This document shows positions 34,183 through 49,369 of a DNA stretch of 64,000 nt, piece by piece. The first letter of the stretch is position 1. Every line of letters begins with the position of its first letter. The stretch is from Winogradskyella ursingii (GTDB lineage: Bacteria > Bacteroidota > Bacteroidia > Flavobacteriales > Flavobacteriaceae). The stretch is from the NCBI RefSeq assembly GCF_013403975.1, contig NZ_JABFDH010000001.1, positions 496,001 to 560,000 on the forward strand. Direction: 5' to 3'. Below the pieces are notes generated by a model. That model was not told where the DNA came from. It searched no databases and was given only the letters and a program-made list of their open reading frames with translations. Position numbers and translations under genes: made by a program.

Positions 34183-36093
34183 ATGAGCAACAACAATGAA
34201 TTTGGAAATATATCCTTCGATTTGCCAAAGCATCAATCTAACGTCATTAAAGTTATTGGCGTAGGAGGTGGCGGTAGCAACGCTATAAATCACATGTTTC
34301 AACAAGGCATAAAAGGTGTCGATTTTGTAATATGTAACACGGACGCACAAGCACTTCAAAATAGTGGTGTTCCTAATAAAATTCAACTTGGTGTTGCTTT
34401 AACAGAAGGTTTAGGTGCAGGTGCCAATCCAGATGTTGGTGAAGAAGCAGCTGTAGAAAGTTTAGAAGATATACGCAGAATGTTAGATACCAATACTAAA
34501 ATGGTATTTATCACTGCTGGTATGGGTGGTGGTACAGGTACAGGTGCTGCGCCAATCATCGCGAAAATGGCCAAGGAATTGGATATTCTTACCGTTGGTA
34601 TCGTAACAATGCCGTTTCAATTTGAAGGCAAAATGCGAAACGAACAAGCACAGAAAGGGATTGAAAAATTACGTATGCATGTAGATTCGTTGGTGGTAAT
34701 CAATAATAACAAACTACGTGAGGTTTACGGTAATCTTGGATTTAAGGCCGGGTTCTCAAAAGCTGATGAAGTATTGTCTACAGCTTCAAGAGGTATTGCA
34801 GAAGTTATAACGCATCATTATACACAAAACATTGATTTACGTGATGCAAAAACTGTATTGAGCAATAGTGGTACGGCAATCATGGGTTCTGCTGCGGCAT
34901 CTGGTCAAACCAGAGCTCAGGAAGCAATCATGAAAGCTTTGGATTCTCCATTATTAAATGATAATAAAATAACTGGAGCCAAAAATGTACTGTTGCTAAT
35001 CGTTTCAGGTTCTCAGGAAATCACCATTGATGAAATCGGTGAAATCAATGACCATATTCAAAACGAAGCTGGTCACGGTGCCAACATTATTATGGGTGTA
35101 GGAGAAGACGAAAGTTTAGAAGAGTCTATTTCTGTCACAATCATCGCGACGGGTTTTGATATCGATCAGCAAAACGAAATTTCAAATACCGAAACTAAAA
35201 AGGTTATTCATGCACTGGAGGATGCTGAAGATAAAATAGTAAAGGATCCAGCGATTATCACACCGGATATCACTTTAGAAAAGAAAAAGGAGACACCCAT
35301 TGTGCGTCACACTTTAATCGAAGATGTTGAGGAGGAGCCAAAGCCAAAAAACAAGAATAATGGCATGGACTTAATCAAAACTTCAGATTTTTTAAAAAAT
35401 ATGAATGTGGTTTATGACGAGGTTTTAGATAAGAAAGAGGAGACCGAAGAATTTATTATTACGCCTATAAATAAGGCCGAAGTCATTGAAGAGTCAGAAC
35501 AAGAGGAAGAGCAAATCACGCTAACATTTGATTTGCCATTGACCAATAAAGCAGAAGTTAAGGATGAACAGGAATCAAAAGAAGAAAAACTTTTTTTCAG
35601 TTTAGATGAAGACGTGAAGGATTTAAACGTCAATGAGCCTGTTGAAATTATTGCTGTTACGGAAGTCAACAAAGAAGGCGAAAAACGCTATGCTTTGGAT
35701 GATTTTGAAACATTTGAATCTTCAATAAATACAAAGTCTGAAAAGACCGAAGTTAAAGAAGAAGTTGTTTTCGAAAAGAAAGTGCTTCCTGTTCAAGAAG
35801 AAGAGCCGCAACTTCAAGAAGAAATTGATCCTATGAATAGTCCAATCTCTGAGATGTTGATAGCACGTGCAGACGAGCGCAGACGTAAGATGAAAGATTT
35901 CAATTATAAATTCAATACAGCAAAAATAGACGAAATAGAAAAAGAGCCTGCTTACAAAAGACAAGGTGTAAATTTAGAGGATGCACAACATTCCTCAGAA
36001 ACTAATGCTTCAAGAATGTCCGTCGGTACAGATGACAATGATGATATTCAATTAAGAAGTAATAATTCGTTTTTACACGATAACGTAGATTAA
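34183..36093 (+). CDS. ftsZ: Cell division GTPase FtsZ with long C-terminal extension
   Basis: 636 residues against ~380 in E. coli. The GTPase core (about residues 18-335) has the tubulin signature GGGTGTG at 115-121 and NTDAQALQ and NNNKLREVYGNL motifs. The C-terminal ~300 residues are acidic, low-complexity and probably disordered. A short conserved-looking peptide PAYKRQGVNL occurs near residue 590, resembling the Bacteroidota FtsZ C-terminal peptide, but here another ~40 residues follow it. FtsZ polymerises into the division ring. Last gene of the dcw cluster, followed by a terminator. Confidence 0.97.
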   Translation: MSNNNEFGNISFDLPKHQSNVIKVIGVGGGGSNAINHMFQQGIKGVDFVICNTDAQALQNSGVPNKIQLGVALTEGLGAGANPDVGEEAAVESLEDIRRMLDTNTKMVFITAGMGGGTGTGAAPIIAKMAKELDILTVGIVTMPFQFEGKMRNEQAQKGIEKLRMHVDSLVVINNNKLREVYGNLGFKAGFSKADEVLSTASRGIAEVITHHYTQNIDLRDAKTVLSNSGTAIMGSAAASGQTRAQEAIMKALDSPLLNDNKITGAKNVLLLIVSGSQEITIDEIGEINDHIQNEAGHGANIIMGVGEDESLEESISVTIIATGFDIDQQNEISNTETKKVIHALEDAEDKIVKDPAIITPDITLEKKKETPIVRHTLIEDVEEEPKPKNKNNGMDLIKTSDFLKNMNVVYDEVLDKKEETEEFIITPINKAEVIEESEQEEEQITLTFDLPLTNKAEVKDEQESKEEKLFFSLDEDVKDLNVNEPVEIIAVTEVNKEGEKRYALDDFETFESSINTKSEKTEVKEEVVFEKKVLPVQEEEPQLQEEIDPMNSPISEMLIARADERRRKMKDFNYKFNTAKIDEIEKEPAYKRQGVNLEDAQHSSETNASRMSVGTDDNDDIQLRSNNSFLHDNVD

Positions 36094-36130
36094 TAGCAAA
36101 TTTAAGTCATTGTGAGTAACACCTTGTCAA

Positions 36131-36165
36131 GCCCAAAAAGCCTACCTCAGCTTTTTGGGCTTTTT
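36131..36165 (+). terminator. Rho-independent terminator ending the dcw cluster
   Basis: 11-bp perfect stem (36131-36141 / 36150-36160), 8-base loop, then TTTTT. Separates ftsZ from yqeY. Confidence 0.88.
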
Positions 36166-36215
36166 GTAGAAATATTTTCTAATATATAAATCTGAAATCA
36201 ACCTCAGATTTTTAG

Positions 36216-36223
36216 TATCTTCG
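36216..36223 (+). promoter_or_regulatory. Probable -7 box for the yqeY-like gene
   Basis: TATCTTCG, one mismatch to TAnnTTTG, 25 bases before the start codon and after the ftsZ terminator, preceded by the A/T-rich TTTTTAG often seen upstream of flavobacterial start sites. Confidence 0.45.
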
Positions 36224-36247
36224 CATCCTAATAAAATTGAATAGATA

Positions 36248-36697
36248 ATGAGTTTACAAGATGAGGTAATGACTGCGATGAAAGCAGCTATGAAAGAGAA
36301 GGATCAAACGGCTTTAGCAGCTTTGCGAGCTGTAAAGTCTGAAATTTTATTAGCTCAAACAGCGTCAGCGTCTAACGATGGTTTAACAGAAGAGGAAGAG
36401 GTTAAAATCTTATCCAAATTGGTCAAACAACGTAAAGATAGTGCTGTCATTTTTGCTGAACAAAACAGACAGGATTTGGCTGAACCAGAATTGGCACAAG
36501 CAGAGGTAATAAGCCAATTTTTACCAGCACAATTATCTGAAGAAGAAATCACAGTAGAAGTCATGAAGACAATAGCCGCAGTTGGTGCAGAAGGAATGAA
36601 GGATATGGGTAAGGTAATGGGTATTGTAAATAAGAAATTGGCTGGTCAAGCCGATGGGAAGACCATCTCTAATATTGTAAAGGCTAAATTGGCCTAA
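36248..36697 (+). CDS. GatB/YqeY domain protein
   Basis: 149 residues, standard length for YqeY. MSLQDEVMTAMKAAMKEKD, LAALRAVKSEI, VKILSKLVKQRKDSA, EQNRQDLAEPELAQAEVISQFLP and the C-terminal GKVMGIVNKKLAGQADGKTISNIVKAKL are typical. The domain resembles the tRNA-binding tail of the GatB amidotransferase subunit; the exact function of free-standing YqeY is not established. It lies between ftsZ and a tRNA-Arg gene. Confidence 0.95.
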   Translation: MSLQDEVMTAMKAAMKEKDQTALAALRAVKSEILLAQTASASNDGLTEEEEVKILSKLVKQRKDSAVIFAEQNRQDLAEPELAQAEVISQFLPAQLSEEEITVEVMKTIAAVGAEGMKDMGKVMGIVNKKLAGQADGKTISNIVKAKLA

Positions 36698-36757
36698 TTT
36701 AAAAGTTTGGAACTTGGTGTCACCTTGAGCATAGTCGATAGGTCTCATCAAAAAAAA

Positions 36758-36831
36758 GGCCACGTAGCTCAGCTGAATAGAGCACTGGATTTCGGCTCCA
36801 GCGGTCGTAGGTTTGAATCCTACCGTGGTCA
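36758..36831 (+). tRNA. tRNA-Arg (anticodon TCG)
   Basis: A full cloverleaf can be folded: acceptor stem GGCCACG/CGTGGTC with one G-T pair, D arm GCTC...GAGC, anticodon stem CTGGA/TCCAG with loop TTTCGGC (anticodon TCG, reading CGA), and T arm GTAGG-TTTGAAT-CCTAC. Discriminator A at 36831. CCA is not encoded. Confidence 0.95.
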
Positions 36832-36862
36832 CAATCACTCACATTGCGCTGTGGATGAGAAA

Positions 36863-36908
36863 GACAAAACCCATCAAGCTAGCTTGTTTGGGTTTTGTCT
36901 TTTTTTTA
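36863..36908 (+). terminator. Terminator after tRNA-Arg
   Basis: 10-bp stem GACAAAACCC (36863-36872) / GGGTTTTGTC (36890-36899) with an inner CAAGCTAGCTTG palindrome, followed by eight T. Confidence 0.88.
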
Positions 36909-36969
36909 GACATTAGTCTTGGAAAGACTGGTAGTTGTATTTGCAGAATGCAGCTATTTTAGGCTATCT

Positions 36970-36986
36970 AATCCTTCCGTGGTCAC
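36970..36986 (+). repeat. Partial copy of the tRNA-Arg 3' end
   Basis: AATCCTTCCGTGGTCAC matches the tRNA 3' end at 36816-36832 at 16 of 17 positions, 154 bp further downstream. A weaker match (TAGG and spacing) extends a few bases upstream. The rest of a tRNA cloverleaf cannot be folded here. Confidence 0.7.
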
Positions 36987-36991
36987 GAATA

Positions 36992-37050
36992 AAATACTTC
37001 AATAGGAAAAAATGCTAAGCTCGCTTGAGCATTTTTTGTTTGAAGTATTT
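36992..37050. terminator. Nested hairpin terminator between the tRNA region and the SLC13 gene
   Basis: Outer stem AAATACTTC (36992-37000) / GAAGTATTT (37042-37050), inner stem AAAAAATGCT (37007-37016) / AGCATTTTTT (37028-37037). A- and T-rich arms allow use on both strands; it also serves the minus-strand transporter gene that ends at 37096. Confidence 0.75.
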
Positions 37051-37095
37051 CCAAGCAGAAATATCTAATAAATTATTATCCAATAACTATATATT

Positions 37096-38547
37096 TCACT
37101 TTAAGGGTTTCAAATCCCAGAGTAAAGGCAGCAAGAAATAAACTACCAAGGTTAATAGAATTATGGAAATAACATTTAGCCAAATTCCTTTTTTGACCAT
37201 ATCTTCCATTTTAAGTAGTCCAGATCCAAATACAACGGCATTAGGTGGAGTCGCAACAGGTAGCATAAACGCACATGAAGCTGCAACGGTAGCACCAACT
37301 AATAAAAAGTAAGGATGTACGTCAATGGCTGTTGCCATAGAGACCAAAACAGGTAATAGCATTGCTGTGGTCGCAAGGTTGGAAGTGATTTCCGTCAAAA
37401 AATTTATTGATGCTACCAATACAAGTAATAAAACCAAAAGTGGTACGGTCTGTAACGATGTCATTTTATGGCCTAACCAAACTGCCAGTCCACTGGATTC
37501 AAATCCTAAGGCCAAAGCCATGCCACCACCAAATAAAAGCAGAATTCCCCATGGTAATCTAATGGTGTCCTCCCAATTTAAAAGTCTTTGTTTTTTATTC
37601 TCGGTTGGCAAAATAAACAAGATTAATCCGCTCGTAATCGCAATAATAGTATCATCAATAGCAGGAATAAAAGGTTGAATTAAAAGCGACCTACAAATCC
37701 ACGCCAATGCAGTAAACAAAAAGACACTACCCACTACTTTTTCCTCAAATGATAATTTACCAAGTAGATTGAGCTGTCTGTTGATTTCAGCCTTACCACC
37801 TGGAAATTTTTTCTGCTCAAATTTAAAAGCAAAGCGCGTTAAATAAATCCAACATAATAACAGAAATACAACACTGATTGGAAATCCAAAACTGAACCAT
37901 TGGTAAAATGTAATTTCAACACCATAACTTTCTTGGACCACTCCAGCCAAAACCAAATTTGGTGGTGTACCAATAAGCGTAGCAATGCCACCAATGGATG
38001 CACTGTAAGCTATAGCTAGCATCAATGCCTTTCCGAAAATTAGATTTTCATTCTCAATAGTTTCAGGTATATCTTTTAATTGAGCAATAATAGCCATGCC
38101 AACTGGAAGAATCATTACTGCAGTTGCCGTATTGGAAATCCACATTGATAAAAATGCAGTGGCAACCATAAAGCCTAAAATAATATGTACCACGTTAGTA
38201 CCTATCACTTTAATAATGTTCAGCGCTATTCGTTTGTGCAAGTTCCATTTTTCTATGGCAATTGCTAAAATAAAGCCGCCAATAAAGAGAAAAATATACT
38301 TATGACCGTAAGAAGCAGTAGTGTCTTGTAACGATAATCCGCCGCTTAGAGGAAATAAGATTATGGGTAACAAAGCTGTGGCTGCAATAGGTAAGGCTTC
38401 AGTAATCCACCAAATGGCTACCCAAACGGCCGAGGCCAAAATGGCATTCGCTTCTTCACTTAAGCCATCTGGATGTACAAATTTTAGTATAACGAAAAAT
38501 AATAATGGACCAAGAACAAGTCCGATTTTCTGTTTTGTTAGTCCCAT
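37096..38547 (-). CDS. SLC13/DASS family sodium-coupled anion transporter
   Basis: 483 residues with about 11-12 hydrophobic segments. The two DASS substrate/Na+ motifs are visible: SIGGIATLIGTPPNLVLAGV in the first half and TEITSNLATTAMLLPVLVSM in the second, followed by VATPPNAVVFGSGLL. The family imports dicarboxylates, citrate or sulfate with Na+. The substrate cannot be told from the sequence; the SNT-type motifs fit a dicarboxylate carrier. ATG start at 38547, divergent from the metallopeptidase gene. Confidence 0.93.
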   Translation of the reverse strand: MGLTKQKIGLVLGPLLFFVILKFVHPDGLSEEANAILASAVWVAIWWITEALPIAATALLPIILFPLSGGLSLQDTTASYGHKYIFLFIGGFILAIAIEKWNLHKRIALNIIKVIGTNVVHIILGFMVATAFLSMWISNTATAVMILPVGMAIIAQLKDIPETIENENLIFGKALMLAIAYSASIGGIATLIGTPPNLVLAGVVQESYGVEITFYQWFSFGFPISVVFLLLCWIYLTRFAFKFEQKKFPGGKAEINRQLNLLGKLSFEEKVVGSVFLFTALAWICRSLLIQPFIPAIDDTIIAITSGLILFILPTENKKQRLLNWEDTIRLPWGILLLFGGGMALALGFESSGLAVWLGHKMTSLQTVPLLVLLLVLVASINFLTEITSNLATTAMLLPVLVSMATAIDVHPYFLLVGATVAASCAFMLPVATPPNAVVFGSGLLKMEDMVKKGIWLNVISIILLTLVVYFLLPLLWDLKPLK

Positions 38548-38744
38548 ATTTTTAAATAGTAATAGGAATGGATTTCACAATTATTCCAATTTCAGTGTTC
38601 TTACATTGGTATAGATATAGCAACAAATTGATGACTCTAAAGTACTGTTTTTTCACAATTAGAGTACACATTAAATTAAATACTATACCTATTACGGATT
38701 TAGAATAAAGATTTTTAATGAATTATCTTTCCTATATTTAGTCA

Positions 38745-39605
38745 ATGTTATATTTGCTTCAAATCGAAAAATACGGTATTGGCCCAACTACCGAATTCAT
38801 ACTTTTATTTATTTTTTTTGCAAGTATGACATGGGTGGTCATGAGCAGATTTTACCGTTATTTTGAGCAGAACTATGCCCTCAGAAATGGTAAACCTTAT
38901 TTTCTGAATCTGATACTTTTTCGTCAAAAGTTATCTAATGACCAGCTTAACATTTTAAGAACAAAATTCAGTTTTTTCAAAAAATTAAATGATAAAGAGA
39001 AAGAAATTTTCAAACATCGTTTAGCGGCATTCATTAAATCTAAAAATTTTGTAGCTAGGGAAAACTTGCAGATAACGGATGAAATGAAGGTCCTGATTTC
39101 TGCAACTGCAGTGATGCTTACTTTTGGTTTTCGTAATTATAAAATAAAAATTATAGACCATATTGTTGTATATCCTATGGCATTTTACTCGTACTCTAAT
39201 AAAGTTTATCACAAAGGGGAAACCAATCCAAATTTGAAAACTGTTGTATTTTCGTGGGAGGATTTTTTGCAAGGATATGAGATTGGCAATGATAATCTCA
39301 ATTTAGGTATTCACGAATTTGGTCACGCCATACATCTCAACGCCATGAGCCGAGGAGATGTAAGCAGTCTTATATTTATTGAAGGTTTTAAAGAGCTGAC
39401 CACGTATTTACAAAATCATCAAGAAATTAGACAAGATTTACTACAATCCAAATATTTTAGAGCTTACGCCTTTACCAACCAGTACGAATTCTTTGCCGTG
39501 CTTTTGGAAAATTTTATTGAAACTCCAAGAGAATTTAAATCTCAATTCCCACATCTCTATCAATATTTGAAACAAATGCTGAATTTTAATTTTGGAGGTT
39601 ATTAA
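38745..39605 (+). CDS. Zinc metallopeptidase of the MtfA/M90 type
   Basis: 286 residues. Two hydrophobic stretches near the N-terminus (about residues 15-35), then a soluble part with the zinc-binding HEFGH (His190-His194) in [15 protein letters not shown] and a downstream Tyr/Glu-rich [15 protein letters not shown] that includes a possible third ligand, as in MtfA (Mlc titration factor). In E. coli MtfA is a cytosolic aminopeptidase linked to glucose transport control; that context is absent here, so only the peptidase assignment is supported. Confidence 0.9.
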
Positions 39606-39688
39606 ATAGAGGTTATCATTCATTTTTGTTTATCAACCCATCACTCTTAAATAAAATAGTATTTTTAGACCATCGTAATCAAGATATA

Positions 39689-40633
39689 ATGAAAAGAATA
39701 TTAGTAACCGGAGGAGCAGGTTTTGTGGGTTCCCATTTATGCGAACGATTATTAAGTGAAGGCAACGAGGTCATTTGTTTAGATAACTATTTTACGGGTT
39801 CTAAGCAAAATATTGAGCATTTAATGGACCATCATTATTTTGAATTGGTGAGGCATGATATTACAAATCCATATATGGTTGAGGTAGACGAAATTTATAA
39901 TTTTGCATGCCCAGCTTCACCAATACATTACCAGTATAATCCTATTAAAACCATTAAAACGTCTGTAATGGGTGCTATTAATATGTTGGGCTTGGCCAAA
40001 CGTGTTGGAGCTAAAATATTACAGGCATCAACAAGTGAAGTTTACGGTGACCCAACGGTGCATCCTCAACCAGAGAGTTATTGGGGCAATGTCAACCCAA
40101 TAGGATTGCGATCTTGTTACGATGAAGGTAAGCGTTGCGCTGAGACTTTGTTTATGGATTACCATAATTCAAACAACGTAAAAATTAAAATTATAAGAAT
40201 ATTTAATACTTACGGACCACGTATGCATCCTCAGGATGGCAGAGTGGTATCGAATTTTATTGTTCAGGCATTAAAAGGAGATGATATCACCATTTTTGGC
40301 GACGGAAAGCAAACTCGCAGTTTTCAATATGTAGATGATCTAGTGGAAGGCACTTGCCGTATGATGAATAGTCGCGACGAATTCATTGGTCCAGTCAATA
40401 TTGGTAATCCAGTTGAATTTACTATGCTAGAATTGGCCAAAGAGGTTTTAGAACTCACCAATTCAAAATCAAAAATCATCTATTTGCCTTTACCTCAGGA
40501 TGATCCTTTGCAAAGACAACCCGACATTACATTGGCGAAAAAGGAACTGAACAATTGGGAGCCTAAGGTGCATTTAAGAGAAGGTTTACAACATACCATT
40601 GCATATTTTGATGAGCTGCTCAAGTCAAAATAA
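39689..40633 (+). CDS. UDP-glucuronate decarboxylase (UDP-xylose synthase)
   Basis: 314 residues from the ATG at 39689 ([20 protein letters not shown]); an open TTG at 39626 would add 21 unlikely residues. SDR-type NAD(P)-binding [18 protein letters not shown] and STSEVYGDP, with Tyr144 and Lys148 of the YxxxK motif in [10 protein letters not shown], all match UXS enzymes. It converts UDP-glucuronate to UDP-xylose, a sugar donor for surface glycans. It stands apart from the main polysaccharide operon at 51.8-63.9 kb but may feed it. Confidence 0.94.
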
Positions 40634-40696: not shown

Positions 40697-41263
40697 TTAA
40701 AGTGCGAATATAGCTTGGAGGTGTATCTGAAAGTGGTTGTTGTCAAACCCACTAAACTTATGGTCCAAGGCAAATTTGGCAACAGTCTGTGCTTTAATTC
40801 CAAATGTTTTTCTTCTGTTTACCCAATATAGAATTCCGCCACCAAGGTTGCCAGATATATTGGTATCCTCAATTGAAAAAATTCCCACACCTGCCAAACC
40901 ATAAAAATCTAATTGGTCAAAATCTGGAAATAATTGTTGGCCAAAATAATATTTTACATGCGTATCAAAAGAAAGATAGGTGTAATCTTCAGTAAGTATA
41001 GCTCCGTCAATAACATCATTTTCAGAAAATCCATTGAGTGTAATGGACTCCTCTATAGCAAGCCCACTTGGCCAGACTAGTTCTATTGACGCTGCAATAG
41101 GGATTTTAAAGGCCCATTCATCAGGACTGTTAATAGGTGATTTAGATCCAATACTGTTAATAGCATTAAGTCCAACACTTGCAAACCATTCATTGTCACC
41201 ACGCTGTGCAAAAACTGATGAAGTAAAAGTGATTAGCGTGAAAACTAATAATAATTTTCTCAT
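40697..41263 (-). CDS. Small outer-membrane beta-barrel-like protein of unknown function
   Basis: 188 residues. A clear signal peptide (MRKLLLVFTLITFTSSVFAQ). The mature part alternates polar and aromatic/hydrophobic residues with short turns (YLSFDTHVKYYFGQQLFPDF, DFYGLAGVGIF, GNLGGGILYWVNRRKTFGIK), as in small 8-strand outer-membrane barrels of Bacteroidota, and ends IHLQAIFAL with a terminal hydrophobic residue. No enzymatic motif. The function is unknown. Confidence 0.85.
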   Translation of the reverse strand: MRKLLLVFTLITFTSSVFAQRGDNEWFASVGLNAINSIGSKSPINSPDEWAFKIPIAASIELVWPSGLAIEESITLNGFSENDVIDGAILTEDYTYLSFDTHVKYYFGQQLFPDFDQLDFYGLAGVGIFSIEDTNISGNLGGGILYWVNRRKTFGIKAQTVAKFALDHKFSGFDNNHFQIHLQAIFAL

Positions 41264-41330: not shown

Positions 41331-42419
41331 TTATTCCAACGAATTATGCTTCGATTTTAGTAAGAGCTTGCTCTTTATTAATGCTAAAACACGTTTTCGA
41401 TCTTTTAATATTGCTGTTCTATATTTAGAATTAAATAGAAACATATAAAATCTGTGCATAAACATACTAAAAGTAGCTAGCAACTTAAGACTTTTTACAT
41501 AGACGTTATTTATCCAACGGTATTTTAATTTAAGCAAATAGAAACGGTTTTTATTGCTTATTGATATATTCATTGTTTGATGTAAATCACTAAAAAAAAT
41601 CCCAAGCAATTTAAAGTGCTTAATAATATGCTTGTTTTTTGACGCTTTAAGATTACTAGTTTCGTCCTGTTTTATTAGGACAATGGTATCGTAGGCTGAT
41701 CTAAAATCTAAATAATTATAATAGGTCCCGTAATCATTGATTTGATGATTAAAAATATTGTGCAAAATTAAATGCCGATTACATGGCAGGTAGAGTCTGC
41801 CATCACTAAATTTATGTTCAAGAATATCCTTTGGTTGAAGATGCTCACTTTTATACGTCGTAAAAAGTTTTAAGTGCAATTCCAACGCGCTTATATTGTT
41901 GGTTGTAGTTAACCTTGGCAAATGTTTAGAATCAAAAAAATCTGTGCCTAATGTTGATGCAATTGGTTTATAGCCATTCTCGACTACAAGGTCAAACGCT
42001 TTGTTAATTTGATGCTCTGCAATTAATATATCTATGTCTCCCACCATTCTTTCAGCAATATCTTTGTAATATCCTGAAACTAAAAGTGCCGTTCCTTTTA
42101 AAAAGACATGATCAATGTGGTGAGCGTTTAATAACTGAGACAATTCTTTGGCTTGTCTAATAATAGCCTCATTTCTATTTCTATTGATGGAAGTAATTTC
42201 TGCGAGGTATGTCTCTAGCTCTTTCGGTAAAAAATTGAGCAATTGCTTATTGTTCAATCGACAATAAATGGTTGGCAGCACTAAGTGTTTGCTGCCTTCG
42301 GTAACCATTGCGTCCCAATTCATCTTCTCATCTTTTAATTGTGCTTCCAACGCTTTGGGATTAGAATTAAAACTGAGGATATCTGCAATTAACTGGTATG
42401 TGGTAACAAGATTTGCCAT
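41331..42419 (-). CDS. Nucleotidyltransferase family protein (PF14907 type)
   Basis: 362 residues. Pol-beta-like nucleotidyltransferase pattern of the 'uncharacterised nucleotidyltransferase' family: FLKGTALL at about 106-113 and the Asp-rich catalytic motif GDIDILIAE at 127-135. The C-terminal half is helical and basic (NSKYRTAILKDRKRVL). The family is frequently found beside HprK-like kinases and PqqD-like proteins in peptide-modification or exopolysaccharide loci; its substrate is not known. It is the last gene of a three-gene minus-strand run (peptide, HprK-like kinase, nucleotidyltransferase), 36 bp after the kinase gene. Confidence 0.88.
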   Translation of the reverse strand: MANLVTTYQLIADILSFNSNPKALEAQLKDEKMNWDAMVTEGSKHLVLPTIYCRLNNKQLLNFLPKELETYLAEITSINRNRNEAIIRQAKELSQLLNAHHIDHVFLKGTALLVSGYYKDIAERMVGDIDILIAEHQINKAFDLVVENGYKPIASTLGTDFFDSKHLPRLTTTNNISALELHLKLFTTYKSEHLQPKDILEHKFSDGRLYLPCNRHLILHNIFNHQINDYGTYYNYLDFRSAYDTIVLIKQDETSNLKASKNKHIIKHFKLLGIFFSDLHQTMNISISNKNRFYLLKLKYRWINNVYVKSLKLLATFSMFMHRFYMFLFNSKYRTAILKDRKRVLALIKSKLLLKSKHNSLE

Positions 42420-42455
42420 GAAGCTACGCCGTCTTAATGCGAATATAAGATAATA

Positions 42456-43586
42456 TTAAGTGGTGCTATTATCGGTAAAAATGTCTGTAACTAAATTGGT
42501 AACTTGAGCTGTATCACTATAGGTAAGTTCATACATGTTCACGTTCTGCAACCATTCTAAAAATGATTTGGCGTGAGCAGGATTAGGTGATAACCATGTA
42601 TCTGGTATCAAGGTTTCCATAAGCTGAGCAACTGAAATAGATTCAAGTTCTGTCACCGCATTTTTTTTATAATTTACTAAAATTATGTTTTGGCACGTGT
42701 ATTTGTTTTGAGTCGGTTTTGGAAAAGGAATGTACTTAATACGTCCTTTAGATGGATTAACCTTAAGCGTTTCAAAAGACTCAAAACCATCAACTAAAGG
42801 ACTCAAAATATCGAAAGAACCCTCTTTTACCGATAGCGCAGCTGGATTGGTGTAAATATTTAAATCATTGGCTGCTAGAGGAGACACATCATCAGCTACG
42901 AGTTCAAAGCCCTGAGTGGCCAATAGTGCACACAACGTACTTTTTCCTTTGCCAGAAACTCCAATAAAAAGAACAGACGATGAACCATCACTTACAGTAG
43001 ATCCATGAAACGTGCCAATCCATTCGTTTTCAGGCTTATTATGGATTGTACAAAACAAGTGCATCATAAATTTTCCCTGTAATTTATGATAAGCTTGCTT
43101 CGGTACTGTGGTCAATAGCTTATCGTTTTTATACAGAAATAAATCATCGTTTTCTAAGTAGATATCAAATACTGTATCTGCCGAATTGGTCGTTGCTATC
43201 TCGAGATGGGCAATTGCAGCATGAATAACTTTCTTAACCAAACTCGAATCGAAATAGACAGTAAAAGTTTGATTGTTATAACGATATGTAGTTTTAATAT
43301 GCCTTTTGTTATTAGTCTTCTTTGTAGTGCTGAAATCTTTAACGTTAGCAGTTCTGTTGCATTCCTTTAAATAATTATGAAGATCCTGGGCAATGATCTT
43401 TAAATCTTTAATATTTTTTTGCGAAAGCGCATTTAGAAAATCCGGTAGATCTTTGGATTGGAGATAATAGTCTAAGATAGATTTAAATTGGTGGTCGACG
43501 ACATTGTAACAATTGGATGGCTCAAACCATAATACCCAGTAGTCACCAAACGAGTATTCATAAGTTGGTGCAAGTAGATTGTCCAA
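42456..43586 (-). CDS. HprK-like kinase with PqqD-like N-terminal region
   Basis: 376 residues. The C-terminal part has the HPr kinase/phosphorylase P-loop GVSGKGKST (209-217), a preceding HGST (194-197) and a Walker-B-like LVADDVSPL (229-237). The N-terminal ~80 residues (YWVLWFEPSNCYNVVD then two helices) look like a PqqD-type peptide-binding domain, by eye only. No PTS/HPr protein is nearby, so this is not the classical carbon-control kinase. Such HprK-related kinases occur next to PqqD-like chaperones and PF14907 nucleotidyltransferases in uncharacterised loci. The short peptide gene ends 15 bp upstream and is the obvious substrate candidate. Confidence 0.85.
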   Translation of the reverse strand: MDNLLAPTYEYSFGDYWVLWFEPSNCYNVVDHQFKSILDYYLQSKDLPDFLNALSQKNIKDLKIIAQDLHNYLKECNRTANVKDFSTTKKTNNKRHIKTTYRYNNQTFTVYFDSSLVKKVIHAAIAHLEIATTNSADTVFDIYLENDDLFLYKNDKLLTTVPKQAYHKLQGKFMMHLFCTIHNKPENEWIGTFHGSTVSDGSSSVLFIGVSGKGKSTLCALLATQGFELVADDVSPLAANDLNIYTNPAALSVKEGSFDILSPLVDGFESFETLKVNPSKGRIKYIPFPKPTQNKYTCQNIILVNYKKNAVTELESISVAQLMETLIPDTWLSPNPAHAKSFLEWLQNVNMYELTYSDTAQVTNLVTDIFTDNSTT

Positions 43587-43601
43587 AACTAAAATTGAAA
43601 A

Positions 43602-43763
43602 TTAATCGAAAAGTCCTCCTCCTGGATCTGGTGGAGATTGCGCTTGGGCTTTCTGTGGGTTTAAAATCATAAACGTACCGACGGCAGTCAACGCTGCATA
43701 TTTACCCATTTTTTTAATGGCGTCTTTACGTGTGATTTTATTTGTATTTTTTTCTTCTTTCAT
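43602..43763 (-). CDS. 53-residue exported peptide, possible substrate of the adjacent HprK-like kinase
   Basis: ATG at 43763, stop at 43602-43604. A basic n-region with a Tat-like TRKDAIKKMG is followed by the hydrophobic stretch AALTAVGTFMIL, then NPQKAQAQ ending in a plausible AxA signal-peptidase site, and a very short mature tail SPPDPGGGLFD. I know no named family. It is too short for routine gene calling but has its own -7 box 24 bases upstream and sits 15 bp before the HprK-like kinase gene in the same direction. The layout (leader plus short Pro/Gly-rich tail, next to a PqqD-like/kinase protein) is that of a modified-peptide precursor. That function is inference. Confidence 0.7.
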   Translation of the reverse strand: MKEEKNTNKITRKDAIKKMGKYAALTAVGTFMILNPQKAQAQSPPDPGGGLFD

Positions 43764-43786: not shown

Positions 43787-43821
43787 CAAAAATAATAAAA
43801 TAATCTATTTATTTAAGCAAA
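43787..43821 (-). promoter_or_regulatory. Promoter of the peptide-kinase-nucleotidyltransferase operon
   Basis: On the minus strand TATTTTTG (43787-43794) is a perfect TAnnTTTG -7 box, 24 bases before the ATG, with TTTG (43818-43821) 23 bases further upstream as a possible -33 element. Confidence 0.55.
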
Positions 43822-43866: not shown

Positions 43867-46026
43867 TTATTTTAAAATTATTTTTTGAGTTTTACTATGA
43901 CTATTGCTACTCAATTTTACTACATATATTCCAGTACTAATACTACTAACGTCAAAGGATTGTGATATTGTATTCACCTCTAATATTTTAGTTGTTACTA
44001 ATCTACCTTGTATATCATATACATTTGCAACCGTCTCCTCAGATAATTGCCCATCTATAACAATGGTTCTCGAAGGTTGATCTGTATAGATACTCAACGA
44101 GTTAAAATCGTTTTCGGGAGCGGAAAGCACACTATTTGTAAAGCGCAGAAAGAAACGACCTGTACCGTTTAAATCAGAATTTGGTGTAAACACATAATCA
44201 CCAGAATTCAATAAAGTAACCGTATTGGCAACATTATCTTCTAAATAAACTTCTACCTCACTTGGTAAGTCTGTATAATCTATAGTGAATGTAATTTGCT
44301 CACCTTGATTGGCATTTACGCCTAAAGGAATGGTTGTATCGTTTATATCTGTATCACCCAAGGATTGTACAGCAAAAGGTAAGCCTACATTATTTTCTAC
44401 TAAATGTGAGTAAATAGAAAATGTGGGTGCGATATCTCCAAATACAGCAGAATCATAACCTGGATTAAGCCCACGAGTTGCATTTTCCGTAAAATAAAAA
44501 TCCGTACTAAAGCTTTTGGATGATGTGGCAATACTTAATTTTAAATTTGAAATATTAACGTTATTTGATCTTCCAGTTATAAAATCATCTGTATTTCCTG
44601 AAGACCGCATAATATCCGTAAAATTAATAGAACCACCTCCAGCAGCGGCAGCAACAAAGAAACCTTGTGCTGGAGCTATTAAAAAAGTTGGGTTCATATC
44701 AGAAAATGCCTGGTTGTAAACTTGATAATCTGTGCCGTCATAGCCATAAACAGCTTCTCTTACGTCATCCAATACTGATTTGTTAGACGTATTTAAAAAT
44801 TCAGACAATTTAAGGTAAGAGGGAAAAGGATTTCCAATTAAGTTCCATTCCATAAATTGAGGGCCAGAAACCGTAATTGGTATAGATACAGGAGTTGTTG
44901 GTAATGACCCTTGAAATAGTAAATTAGCTCCTTCGATTGTTGCAGCTCTATAACCTTTGCCAGATTCCAAAGTTTCTCCTAAGGTACTACTGTTATAGTT
45001 TTCAAAATCACCAGTTGTTTTATCAAAGGGTGCAAAGGCATAATCTGTTGTAACACCTAAAAAATTTTGGGCCATTACTGTTGTGTTCAACCCTGTGGTT
45101 ATAAATTCTTGCCATGTTATTCCAGCAAGAGGTGCCGAAATTAAATCATTGCCTTCGGATGGTGCGGAGCTCATTATATTTGTAAAACGCGAATAAATTA
45201 GCGTTCCGGTTACGGAGCCATCTGCTATAATACTGGAGTAGCTTTGGGAATAAGATTGCAAATTTATTGAGTTTGTAACCAAAGAGAATCCAGTTGGGAC
45301 ATTGACACCTGCACCAGGCGTCACAAACATATCGTTTAAATTTGCATTGCTTGTTACTATATACTCACCATTTAAAATTTTCGCATCTAAAGTTCCAGTG
45401 GTGATATCCGGAGGTGATGGTGTCCAGTTATTGTTATAAAAAACTAAACCATTAAAAACATCTTCTACTTGAAATTCTGAGGTTGAGTAACCTTGGTTAA
45501 GTCCATCTTCATCAAATTCAAAACCCACTACTAAAGAGTTGTTGGCAGAGACATCTAAATTTAAAACAGAATAATTTATAGACTGACCTGTGGTAGTCGC
45601 TCCAACATTTGTTTCTACTCTTGCATCACCATCCAATATATAAAAATAGATAAAGTTACCTTCGATTGCACCTGCATTAGTTGATGAGGCCGTTATGTTT
45701 ATGGTTGTAGAGCCAGAAACATCAATACTTTGGCTCATAAAAATACCTTGTCCTCCCCAATCATCACTCTGTAATTCACCGCTAACAACTTTAAAGGAAT
45801 TCGCAGTACCATCAGTGATAGGAGCAGTATCGTAAGACAAATTCCAAGAATTTTGGATGCTTCCAAAAGGACCAATTGAAATAGGCCCTACTGCAGGTGG
45901 TGAAGCGGTTGTATGATCGGCAAAGCCGTCTCCATTGTTAGAGAAGTCAGCATCGTAAATAATTGTCTGCCCAAAGCCAATTATTGTTATACAAAAGGCT
46001 AAAAATAGCAGGTATTTTTTTTTCAT
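43867..46026 (-). CDS. T9SS-exported surface protein (type A sorting domain)
   Basis: 719 residues. A signal peptide (MKKKYLLFLAFCITIIGFG, then Q), a large beta-rich region, and the C-terminal T9SS type A sorting domain (about residues 645-719: VANVYDIQGRLVTTKILEV, STGIYVVKLSSNSHSKTQKI). The middle contains WNLIGNPFPSYL and GYDGTDYQVYNQAF motifs shared with the neighbouring 1020-residue protein, so the two are paralogs. It is expected to be carried across the outer membrane and fixed to the surface or released. Its ligand is unknown. The promoter resembles that of the paralog. Confidence 0.9.
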   Translation of the reverse strand: MKKKYLLFLAFCITIIGFGQTIIYDADFSNNGDGFADHTTASPPAVGPISIGPFGSIQNSWNLSYDTAPITDGTANSFKVVSGELQSDDWGGQGIFMSQSIDVSGSTTINITASSTNAGAIEGNFIYFYILDGDARVETNVGATTTGQSINYSVLNLDVSANNSLVVGFEFDEDGLNQGYSTSEFQVEDVFNGLVFYNNNWTPSPPDITTGTLDAKILNGEYIVTSNANLNDMFVTPGAGVNVPTGFSLVTNSINLQSYSQSYSSIIADGSVTGTLIYSRFTNIMSSAPSEGNDLISAPLAGITWQEFITTGLNTTVMAQNFLGVTTDYAFAPFDKTTGDFENYNSSTLGETLESGKGYRAATIEGANLLFQGSLPTTPVSIPITVSGPQFMEWNLIGNPFPSYLKLSEFLNTSNKSVLDDVREAVYGYDGTDYQVYNQAFSDMNPTFLIAPAQGFFVAAAAGGGSINFTDIMRSSGNTDDFITGRSNNVNISNLKLSIATSSKSFSTDFYFTENATRGLNPGYDSAVFGDIAPTFSIYSHLVENNVGLPFAVQSLGDTDINDTTIPLGVNANQGEQITFTIDYTDLPSEVEVYLEDNVANTVTLLNSGDYVFTPNSDLNGTGRFFLRFTNSVLSAPENDFNSLSIYTDQPSRTIVIDGQLSEETVANVYDIQGRLVTTKILEVNTISQSFDVSSISTGIYVVKLSSNSHSKTQKIILK

Positions 46027-46306: not shown

Positions 46307-49300
46307 TTAATTCAAAATTATCTTTTGTGACTTGGTTTGTTCTACATTGTTCAATTTTACTATGTAGACACCTGTGTTTAAGTTTTCAACATTAATCGTT
46401 TGTGATGTGTTATCAGTGCTTAAAACTGCAGAGGCTACTAATCGACCTTGTATATCGTAAATATTTGCTGTTGTTTCTAGACTCAATAAACCTTCAATGA
46501 TAATAGTTTTGGTCGATTGTTGGGTGTAGATATTCAAGTTGTCAAAACTATTTTCTTGAGTACTAAGGACACTATTTGCTAAACGTAAAAAGAAACGTCC
46601 TGTACCTTCAATAGCACTACTTGGTGTAAAGGTATAAGCGCTAGTATTTAATAACGTAATCGTGTTGGCTACATTGTCCTCCAAATAAACATTAACATCG
46701 CTTGGCAGGTCAGAAAAATCGATTGAAAAACTAAGTTGTTCACCTTGATTGGCATTGACTCCCAACGGAATTCTAACATCAGTTAGATCATTTTCGTTAA
46801 GTGACTGTATCGCCATGGCTCTGTCTTGATTATCCTCAACCAATTGCGAATAAAATGCGCTATCACCAAAAGCTTCAAAGGAGGCAGCGTCATATCCAGG
46901 GTCTAAACCTAAACTGGAATTGCTATTAAAATAAAAATTGGTAAAATGAGTACTATTTCCAGTCAAAGCAAGTTTAAGATTGTAGTTGGTCGTGTTGGTT
47001 CTGCCTTCAATAAAATCGTCGGTGCCAACGGTGGTTCGCATATCGTCTGGGAATCCGCCTGAATTACCACCAAAAATAACGGTGCCAGGATTGCCGGTGA
47101 CAATATTAACTTCACCAGCAGCTATAAAAAAGGCTTGTCCAGGTGCTATGTTCAATGTGTTGTTAGAAGCCATATTAATAATAGTAAAGTTTCCTGTTTC
47201 TGCTTCATTACCAGAATACGTACCACTATTGTAAGCATATATGGCAACGGCGTTTTCGTCTAAGAATACGTTATTTACTTCCAGCCAATCTTGAGCATCC
47301 ACGTAAGTTGGAAATGGATTACCAATAAGATTCCAAAAGTTCCCAACTGCAGGGTTTGTTAGCGTAAAAGTCACGTCGTCAGCACTTATGGCACCTGTAA
47401 AGGTCAATGTTTCGTCCGCATTGGTCAATGCCGCTCTGTATCCTTTAGCTTGGACAAGAGCATCGGTACTTTGCGAAGTATAATTAATATATCTAGGTGA
47501 TAATGATGAATTATCATAAGGTCCAAATCCGTAAGTGGTTAAACCAGGAATCGAATTTGAGGCTAATTTTGAAGCATTATCTGGAGTACCTCTGGTTAGA
47601 AATTGATCAAAAGTCTCAACTACTGACGGAAATAACGGTAAACTTATAAGATCATTACCTCCAGAAACTCCATCACTACCTTGTTGGTTCACATGACGCT
47701 TATAGGTTACGGTACCAAGAACGTTGTCATTTGAAAGTAAACTAGAATACTGGCTAGAAGTAGATCTTAAATTCACTGAAGCAGTCGCTAAAGTAACTCC
47801 CGAAGGTACCACGACTGCAGCACCTGCATCTACAAACATATCGTTAAACCCTACATCTGTAGGCAAAGTGTAGGTGCCAGATTGAATAATCGCATTTCTA
47901 TTACTGTTTGAGTCGTTCGGGTCGGTGTTCCAGCTACCATCTTTAAAGGCCAGATAGGTTACAATTTGACCTGTCCCATTACTACCTGGAGAACCAAAAT
48001 CACTGTCAATCCCTTCTGAAGTTGTTGATTCTTCCCAAAGACTACCGTCATTGTTATCCTCGATATCAGAACCAGTATATATCATGGCTGCTCCGGTTGG
48101 GTTTGGCCAAGGTGAAGAACCTGTGTAATCCACACGGTCAATTAAATTACCATTGTTATCTGTGAGTATAACTTCATCATCCTCATTGTTCAATTGAAAA
48201 CCTGAATAATCATAATCTACCTCAACTCCACCATTAACACCTTCATCAGCATTTCTTCCCAATACAGCAAATCCTAAGGATGGCACTATAACAGAAGAAC
48301 CAATTACATGTGAGTCTGTGCCAAAATCGCTAATGGTCCACGCGTTCATGTCGATATCGATATCTGTAGGGTTATAAACCTCGAAATACTCACCATTTAC
48401 TTGGTCTGTGGCATCAGGATTTTGCATGATTTCCGTTATGATAAGAACTGGAACATCATTGTCCTCTATTGTAATGGTATGTTGGCTGATTGCTAAATCG
48501 GCAGTACCACTTGTCACAGCAATATCCAGAATTAAGGTTTCATCGTCAAAATCCGCATCTTCATTAATATCTAAAGAAACATTTAAAGTTTCATTTGCAG
48601 TAAAGGATAGAGAAGTTGTATTTAGTGTGTAATCTTCAGCTTCTGCCGTACTTGAGCCATTTACACTAACCGAAACTGTGACATCACTTTCATAATTGGT
48701 CATGGTCAAAGGTATTGAGGTGTTAAAGGTTGCATTGGTTTCGTTTTCAGTGCTTGTGGCAGAATCGAAAGTTATGGTTGGAGTTAAACTGTCGTCACTA
48801 CCGGTTACTTCTAAATTGTCAAAAAAATATCTTTCTGTACCAACATTGTTATTTACTGAAATTTGAACAAAGGCATTATTGCCAGTTCCAGTTACTGTAG
48901 AAGAAAAATTTTGGAGAACTGAAGATAATTGAGTTGTTCCAAAAAACATAGGATCTCCTGTGATATCCTCATCTACTACTCCTTCAAATAGAAGCTGAGA
49001 GCTACCATCGATGAATACCCTAACTTCATAAATATCTGATCCAGCCTCAAAATCTCCACTTGCACCTGCATCAAAACTAAAAGTTAAATTAGAAAATCCA
49101 TTGATTGAAAATGTTTGGCTTGTAAAGATAACAGTGCCATCTACGTCTTGAGCTTCAAATTGTTCCCCTTGAACAGCAAAATAATCAGAATTATTTGTAA
49201 AGGAACCTGCTGAGGTATCTAGAGTCCAATCTACTCCAGAGAGATCTAAGGTTGAGCCTATTTGTCCCTTATTGTTCTCGCCCGTAAATTCATCAGTATA

Positions 49301-49369
49301 AATTGTAGTCTGCCCAAAGCCCAAGCTACTTACTAAAACCGCTAAAGCTAAAATGTAAAATTGTTTCAT
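46307..49369 (-). CDS. T9SS-exported surface protein with lamin-tail domain
   Basis: 1020 residues. Signal peptide at residues 1-20 (ending SSLGFGQ). Residues ~20-190 form a beta-sandwich-like module, ~196-305 a Calx-beta-like repeat (ATFNTSIPLTMTNYESDV to TITIEDND), and ~309-425 a lamin-tail (LTD) domain (ITEIMQNPDATDQVNGEYFE, NAWTISDFG, NLIDRVDY). A long beta-rich region shared with the 719-residue neighbour follows, then a type A sorting domain at ~945-1020. LTD domains in bacterial surface proteins often accompany nucleases or adhesins; no nuclease motif is seen here. Likely a surface adhesin or matrix protein. Confidence 0.9.
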   Translation of the reverse strand: MKQFYILALAVLVSSLGFGQTTIYTDEFTGENNKGQIGSTLDLSGVDWTLDTSAGSFTNNSDYFAVQGEQFEAQDVDGTVIFTSQTFSINGFSNLTFSFDAGASGDFEAGSDIYEVRVFIDGSSQLLFEGVVDEDITGDPMFFGTTQLSSVLQNFSSTVTGTGNNAFVQISVNNNVGTERYFFDNLEVTGSDDSLTPTITFDSATSTENETNATFNTSIPLTMTNYESDVTVSVSVNGSSTAEAEDYTLNTTSLSFTANETLNVSLDINEDADFDDETLILDIAVTSGTADLAISQHTITIEDNDVPVLIITEIMQNPDATDQVNGEYFEVYNPTDIDIDMNAWTISDFGTDSHVIGSSVIVPSLGFAVLGRNADEGVNGGVEVDYDYSGFQLNNEDDEVILTDNNGNLIDRVDYTGSSPWPNPTGAAMIYTGSDIEDNNDGSLWEESTTSEGIDSDFGSPGSNGTGQIVTYLAFKDGSWNTDPNDSNSNRNAIIQSGTYTLPTDVGFNDMFVDAGAAVVVPSGVTLATASVNLRSTSSQYSSLLSNDNVLGTVTYKRHVNQQGSDGVSGGNDLISLPLFPSVVETFDQFLTRGTPDNASKLASNSIPGLTTYGFGPYDNSSLSPRYINYTSQSTDALVQAKGYRAALTNADETLTFTGAISADDVTFTLTNPAVGNFWNLIGNPFPTYVDAQDWLEVNNVFLDENAVAIYAYNSGTYSGNEAETGNFTIINMASNNTLNIAPGQAFFIAAGEVNIVTGNPGTVIFGGNSGGFPDDMRTTVGTDDFIEGRTNTTNYNLKLALTGNSTHFTNFYFNSNSSLGLDPGYDAASFEAFGDSAFYSQLVEDNQDRAMAIQSLNENDLTDVRIPLGVNANQGEQLSFSIDFSDLPSDVNVYLEDNVANTITLLNTSAYTFTPSSAIEGTGRFFLRLANSVLSTQENSFDNLNIYTQQSTKTIIIEGLLSLETTANIYDIQGRLVASAVLSTDNTSQTINVENLNTGVYIVKLNNVEQTKSQKIILN

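Follow-up and report, generated by a model that had tools for sequence, protein, structure and literature searches.

What a short peptide gene, a kinase gene and a nucleotidyltransferase gene make together, and what their product serves, is the question raised by a locus of Winogradskyella ursingii. The locus lies in the window, by which we mean the whole 64,000-nucleotide stretch of DNA that was analysed. A first-pass annotation had described three minus-strand genes running in the order peptide, kinase, nucleotidyltransferase. Their order and places were confirmed from the open reading frames, and phmmer searches with the window proteins as queries found relatives at other loci, which puts the gene set beyond chance. 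Our preferred reading, to which we assign a probability of about 60%, is that the genes encode a RiPP-like pathway that works for some of the T9SS surface proteins alone, with the peptide serving the cargo. The features on which the argument draws are these:

43602-43763, minus strand: precursor peptide, 53 aa (from the ORF list; member of a conserved family)
43635-43637, minus strand: codon of Ser43, invariant in alignments and the candidate phosphorylation site
42456-43586, minus strand: predicted RRE-HprK fusion kinase, 376 aa, with a TTG start as called
43356-43586, minus strand: putative N-terminal RRE (PqqD-like) domain of the kinase, residues ~1-77 (fold comparison)
41331-42419, minus strand: PF14907 nucleotidyltransferase-like protein, 362 aa (profile match)
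43867-46026, minus strand: T9SS type-A cargo encoded just 5' of the peptide gene, with the sorting domain at its C-terminus
~44116-45255, minus strand: system-specific ~370-residue domain of the first cargo (domain profile, 471 bits)
46307-49369, minus strand: second T9SS type-A cargo, which carries this domain too and a Lamin Tail Domain (profiles)
~46553-47764, minus strand: system-specific domain of the second cargo (domain profile, 364 bits)
40697-41263, minus strand: exported 188-aa protein, encoded at the end of the usual cassette and a less certain member of it

Gene layout and the precursor peptide family

Among 28 fetched relative loci, phmmer identified the kinase in all 28, the nucleotidyltransferase in 24 and the peptide in 22, so that a short peptide does accompany most of the homologous kinase genes. 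Used alone as the query of a contig scan, the kinase gave no confirmed match; with the peptide profile, 412 of 446 stretches were confirmed, and the best 80 of these 412 yielded 79 loci. The order cargo-peptide-kinase-nucleotidyltransferase-barrel was kept in 65 of the 79. The last gene in this order encodes the exported 188-aa protein, which we take to be barrel-like from its look and which had no family match in the profile search. It was present in 12 of the 28 fetched loci plus the window, and in 67 of the 79 loci from the best 80 of 412 stretches. In the window the cassette is flanked (34183-40633) by the ftsZ-like end of a dcw cluster and an M90 peptidase gene, homologues of which recur at about 10 of 29 loci.

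Two neighbouring elements of the first-pass annotation fared less well. The promoter credited to the peptide corresponds to a match to TTTG-N23-TATTTTTG at 43787-43821, which says nothing: chance alone would give 7.3 copies of the pattern in the window, and nine are present. The nearby asparagine synthetase was confirmed with TIGR01536 (419 bits against 267), but a part for it in the system did not hold up, with a relative in none of the 28 fetched loci. We also discarded it as a lasso cyclase, with 207 bits for NF033535 against a cut-off of 525 and absence from the 28 relatives.

The 53-aa peptide has a positively charged start, a hydrophobic stretch, the segment NPQKAQAQ and the tail SPPDPGGGLFD. 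The profile search gave no family match above cut-off, and the closest named relatives among the matches listed were from Winogradskyella. In 26 aligned peptides R12, A15, T26, A27, L34, P36 and S43 were invariant. This was extended with 105 distinct peptide ORFs, drawn from the 79 loci (best 80 of 412 stretches) and the set found with the peptide profile A1. All 105 had the Ser equivalent to S43, the pattern [AST][QH]xxS, a Pro seven residues before the Ser and an Arg-to-Ser spacing of 31 or 34. A peptide from G149, outside this set, has Ala at the [QH] place and keeps the Ser. The conservation of the leader is partly a selection effect, because the sets were collected by leader likeness; the pattern used in the contig scan was KYAAxTAxGT, of which the Ser is not a part.

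Counted from the Ser to the C-terminus, 90 of the 105 ORFs have 8-15 residues. Uncorrected median pairwise pN/pS was 0.17 for the leader (86 peptides), 0.16 for 11-residue tails (n=56) and 0.56 for 12-residue tails (n=12, ungapped comparison). The peptide is an intact reading frame of a family under purifying selection, and alignment showed a conserved leader, an invariant Ser and largely constant tails. In L034, L037 and L039 the peptides (91, 85 and 95 aa) carry long Ser/Thr- or Lys/Pro/Gly-rich extensions past the usual tail, so the mature part may be much longer there.

The leader had been described as Tat-like. Its residue pair was RK in 99, RN in 5 and RQ in one of the 105 ORFs, and the absence of a twin arginine (RR) from all of them ruled out Tat export. 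Judged from the shape of the signal, the leader is probably a Sec-type export signal; against this, residue -1 of the would-be signal-peptidase site was often not small in the 105 ORFs.

The tails bear on one alternative, in which the product is a secreted phosphopeptide signal or antimicrobial acting on other cells, the T9SS proteins being receptors, carriers or co-regulated neighbours. Such a role would suit a short exported peptide that is encoded, as RiPPs are, together with modifying enzymes, and it would suit the distinct tails found inside a single genome (e.g., L050 and L045). Signals and weapons typically have fast-changing sequences. Most tails here, however, were nearly constant across species: SPPDPGGNPFD was identical in 32 of 86 peptides, and 80 of the 86 had F or W in the tail.

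The kinase and the PF14907 enzyme

Structure modelling indicated that the kinase is a fusion of an RRE (RiPP recognition element) and an HprK-fold kinase. The model had a pLDDT of 91.6, and HprK/P and PEPCK folds were among its fold matches. H194, K215, D232 and D233 were invariant in a 27-row alignment, which comprised 27 of the 29 kinases, leaving out the split copy of G040 and the cut copy of G067; alignment with HprK/P supported the same catalytic set. The closest folds to the N-terminal domain were lasso-peptide B1 proteins, with modest E-values. The PqqD-like N-terminus proposed from the sequence therefore appears RRE-like by structure comparison. Sequence profiles failed to recognise the domain: the Pfam PqqD profile matched one of 52 members (E 0.049), and a PDB sequence search returned TPR and other unrelated chains. 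Nor was an RRE entry among the structure matches listed for the whole kinase (VIA list), which was filled by the kinase domain.

An ordinary HPr kinase, its neighbours being unrelated to it and the small ORF spurious, would also show the HprK fold. This explanation is very improbable. HprK models scored far below cut-off (TIGR00679, 24 bits against 240), as did HprK-related kinase A (TIGR04352, 59.8 bits against a curated cut-off of 200). HPr (PF00381) was absent from the W. ursingii genome in a search whose control was positive in 7 of 14, and the small ORF belongs to a conserved family under selection. An identity as HPr kinase was ruled out based on the missing HPr and the low HprK scores.

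The partner enzyme matched PF14907 (NTP_transf_5) with an E-value of 3.2e-30 and 106 bits against a gathering cut-off of 31.2. Across 25 sequences, G127-D128-I129-D130 (DxD), K108, G109, E180, H182 and D244 were conserved.

The substrate of kinases of this kind had been considered not established. That view is outdated, as passages of PMC9266682 and PMC13381572 give lasso peptides and LPPs, respectively, as known substrates. The suggestion that the adjacent peptide is the natural substrate here gained support from the conservation of the peptide as a partner, its invariant Ser and the RRE predicted on the kinase. It gained support also from the four genomes in which no kinase was detected, since two of them have a decayed peptide.

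Distribution and the probable T9SS cargo partner

Of 299 family genomes, 29 (that of W. ursingii among them) have the kinase and 34 match the peptide profile A1, 32 of these strongly (E 1.2e-18 or better). Kinase and strong peptide occurred together in 28 of the 299 (P 5.5e-34, kinship ignored). The sole kinase genome without a peptide was G048, whose contig L057 starts inside the kinase. Named hosts were marine flavobacteria such as Winogradskyella and Psychroserpens. The search of flavobacterial genomes for the kinase and its neighbouring short ORFs found a conserved peptide partner. In 21 of the 22 loci with a peptide, a same-strand peptide gene immediately precedes the kinase gene, the two overlapping by 1 bp at one extreme and standing 91 bp apart at the other; L056 has the order peptide-nucleotidyltransferase-kinase. 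Six loci had no phmmer match to the peptide. L057 begins within the kinase, L055 ends at the cut 5' end of the kinase and L054 ends 79 bases upstream; L058 (G151) has a partial peptide match 5' of the kinase, and G123 (L035) and G055 (L052) have peptides at other places in the genome.

In a phylum sample, a strong peptide was present in 5 of 395 genomes, three of which were already within the family sample, and the same five had a full-length kinase (>400 bits). The remaining kinase matches in that sample reached at most 57.5 bits and were centred on the P-loop region. In an order sample the peptide was found in 8 of 296 genomes, two being incomplete genomes of other families.

Several loci showed duplication or decay. 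L191:7001-12786 (Lutibacter agarilyticus) holds three peptides, one whole kinase, two kinase fragments and one nucleotidyltransferase, and is a case of cassette duplication and decay. In L184:7612-8591 (Gelidibacter maritimus) two peptide genes enclose two kinase fragments, the remains of a decayed duplicate; the tail of its second peptide has two Cys, which is unusual for the family. In G040 the kinase is split over two frames although the peptide and the nucleotidyltransferase are present, which counts against our preferred reading, and G197 has a decayed second peptide copy although a kinase is present.

Four genomes (G136, G275, G283 and G295; 82-92% complete) had a strong peptide and no kinase by profile, the kinase profile giving just two scraps of 15-17 bits in G136. 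In G283 the peptide has decayed, with the Ser replaced by Tyr and no start codon before the leader, and in G295 there are stops in frame, one of them at the place of the Ser. By contrast, G275 has one intact frame and one that is open without a standard start, with the Ser in both, and G136 has an intact frame behind a cargo remnant; these two genomes are 82-84% complete. The sequences lean towards upkeep of the peptide depending on the kinase, but the four genomes without a detected kinase split two against two. One locus from a genome without a detected kinase (L094:6951-7085) has a cargo gene reduced to a 44-aa remnant, consisting of the signal and the end of the sorting domain, with an intact peptide behind it.

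The two surface proteins upstream of the peptide are T9SS type-A cargos (TIGR04183, 38.2 and 39.7 bits against a cut-off of 23). The Por_Secre_tail domain was present in both and in 13 of 13 scanned cargo proteins. In the fetched set plus the window, 24 of 26 peptides had a same-strand cargo gene of one homologous family 2-357 bp upstream; the two exceptions were the second of a peptide pair (L039) and a locus with an opposite-strand gene between cargo and peptide (L048). In the 79 loci from the best 80 of 412 stretches, a same-strand cargo gene lay upstream within 450 bp for 73 of 85 peptides and within 1.5 kb for 82 of 85 (71 and 81 of 85 when at least 200 bits were demanded). The three without a cargo within 1.5 kb were two at contig starts and L179, which had none. 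In L089:1080-3003, five near-identical 119-aa ORFs stand in tandem upstream of a peptide gene whose neighbours are T9SS-type genes.

This association extends to peptides far from the kinase. G383 and G597 each have six peptides and a single kinase-nucleotidyltransferase pair on another contig, in trans, and all 12 peptides stand behind cargo genes, 11 of them directly and one as the second of a pair. Some further peptides distant from the kinase also follow a cargo gene or remnant; the L092 peptide has no preceding cargo, and contig ends truncate L096, L099 and L100. A ~308-aa protein that begins like a lipoprotein and has no Pfam match is encoded directly 5' of the kinase in both genomes with six peptides (L217:9820-10749, L218:10173-11099), and it is possibly an extra member of the system in that genus.

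Profile A4 was built from the ~370 residues before the sorting domain of the cargo and tested on 51 genomes chosen before the result: 21 of the 30 then-known carriers of kinase and peptide, and 30 genomes without either (G001-G039 minus carriers, minus G005 for a weak match and minus G003, G015 and G022 for low completeness). The domain reached at least 285 bits in 21 of 21 system genomes (best carriers, 285-499 bits) and at most 138 bits in 30 of 30 without the system (Fisher P 9e-15). Same-genus pairs with and without the system gave 453 against 88 bits (g29) and 499 against 111 bits (g39). Although 18 of the 21 positives had contributed to A4, the three outside its training scored 285, 353 and 350 bits, and three untrained paralogues in the W. 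ursingii genome scored 364-431 bits. Loci of further carriers scored 246 (G149), 296 (G151) and 340-391 bits (G004, G033, G197, G204 and G259); a full copy was not seen in the small loci of G048, G055 and G067. Against our preferred reading, G283 keeps a 395-bit copy without a detected kinase. The W. ursingii genome has four full copies against one peptide. Because both surface proteins of the window bear this domain, which tracks the system genome by genome, they are likely partners of the peptide system.

These observations also weigh against a role as signal or antimicrobial, which we consider unlikely: peptide genes distant from the kinase still follow a cargo gene, and the domain co-occurs with the system on unrelated passengers (such as phosphoesterase, M14, M43 and M12B peptidase, and sugar dehydrogenase domains).

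The strict linkage of the enzymes to the cargo domain could also be expected if the kinase and the PF14907 enzyme modified T9SS cargo or surface glycan, the peptide being a regulator, chaperone or membrane adaptor and not the substrate; it would fit, too, that several relatives have capsule-type genes (clusters c7 and c12) close to the cassette. We regard this as less probable still than a signal, since the RRE is a binder of leader peptides in known systems, Ser43 is invariant and was lost with gene decay in G283 and G295, and the enzymes of G383 and G597 have no recognised capsule-type genes beside them (~8 kb).

Proposed pathway and related systems

For a RiPP-like pathway serving T9SS cargo, we propose the following steps. 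In the cytoplasm, the 53-aa precursor would be held by its leader on the RRE of the kinase while the HprK domain phosphorylates Ser43, as suggested by the kinase's fold and catalytic residues, its co-occurrence with the peptide and the peptide decay. The PF14907 enzyme would then cap the phosphate with a sugar or nucleotide, by analogy with PsmN; this is the weakest enzymatic step. The leader would double as a Sec-type signal, and cleavage near [AST][QH]x would release a modified peptide, typically of 11-13 residues, with the form S-P-x-x-P-G-G-x-x-F/W. Outside the cell the peptide would serve type-A cargo, most likely as a ligand or anchor of the ~370-aa C-terminal domain. The association of peptide and cargo is seen in the genomes themselves, and from it we infer the role for the cargo.

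More tentatively, we speculate that T9SS cargo has a dedicated ligand or linker in the modified ribosomal peptide (phospho- or glyco-), which would be captured by the ~370-aa domain or by the PorU sortase at work on the adjacent sorting domain. If this speculation is correct, a RiPP-type pathway does the job of the sugar-borne serine in Porphyromonas, and a RiPP is aimed at the producer's own surface proteome, which would be a new kind of system. The locus points to one way in which flavobacteria might hold type-A cargo on their surfaces or equip it there. A compact set (the predicted RRE-kinase fusion, the PF14907 enzyme and the precursor) is encoded beside its probable partner, the domain-bearing T9SS cargo, so that a phosphopeptide-RiPP role is testable by simple deletions.

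The nearest known system is the LPP system (LppA, K, B, S, D and N). As passages of PMC13381572 describe it, the two share an HprK-like kinase, an NTP transferase and a precursor with a conserved N-terminal part, a variable C-terminus and an invariant Ser near the cleavage site, as well as a capsule neighbourhood. LppK phosphorylates Ser3 of the LPP core, and the kinase here has the catalytic His/Lys/Asp-Asp. Both also have an uncharacterised NTP transferase gene, here a PF14907 member and there lppN; deletion of lppN was without effect in that study, a point against the proposed pathway. The RRE is a discrete protein in LPP systems, and the RRE-like fold seen here is apparently fused to the kinase. 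By contrast with LPP, the [Y/W]xxP leader motif occurs in one of our 105 leaders, and the SpI-like peptidase and MsbA-like exporter are absent inside the contiguous cassette. The host here belongs to Bacteroidota, with a tie to T9SS cargo, whereas LPPs and paeninodins occur solely in Bacillota according to Popov et al. 2026 (PMC13381572), who also call the roles of these products unknown.

Phosphorylated lasso peptides (paeninodin and pseudomycoidin), as passages of PMC9266682 present them, likewise have a His-Lys-Asp-Asp kinase and a PF14907-type partner acting on the Ser of a ribosomal peptide; unlike them, the cassette here has no cyclase or B2 peptidase. PsmN puts hexoses on phospho-Ser, and the same source allows that PsmN is a true nucleotidyltransferase, with a host glycosyltransferase acting afterwards. 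The system therefore works like the LPP and phospho-lasso pathways, yet falls outside both groups because of its fused RRE, the lack of [Y/W]xxP, the lack of peptidase, exporter and cyclase in the cassette, and its Bacteroidota host. In the openly licensed literature we found neither a description of this system nor a paper joining HprK, PqqD and RiPP.

On the side of the cargo, the SAGA linkers of Porphyromonas are comparable in that an amino acid (Ser) links T9SS cargo to a surface glycan (passages of PMC7468200 and PMC13086638), the C-terminus of the cargo being amide-bonded to a seryl sugar (PMC7468200). The analogy suggests, no more, that a modified-Ser peptide could play a similar part. 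In Porphyromonas, however, the Ser is set on the sugar by the Wbp/Vim pathway, whereas here a ribosomal peptide bears the invariant Ser and the link to the cargo is conjectural. RemA and RemZ of Flavobacterium johnsoniae, described in passages of PMC10994853, are T9SS type-A cargos in which one region is a homologue of the system-specific domain (E 7e-33 and 3e-32); this region scored ~117 bits, a level also reached where the system is lacking, compared with 285-499 bits for the best carriers of the tested system genomes.
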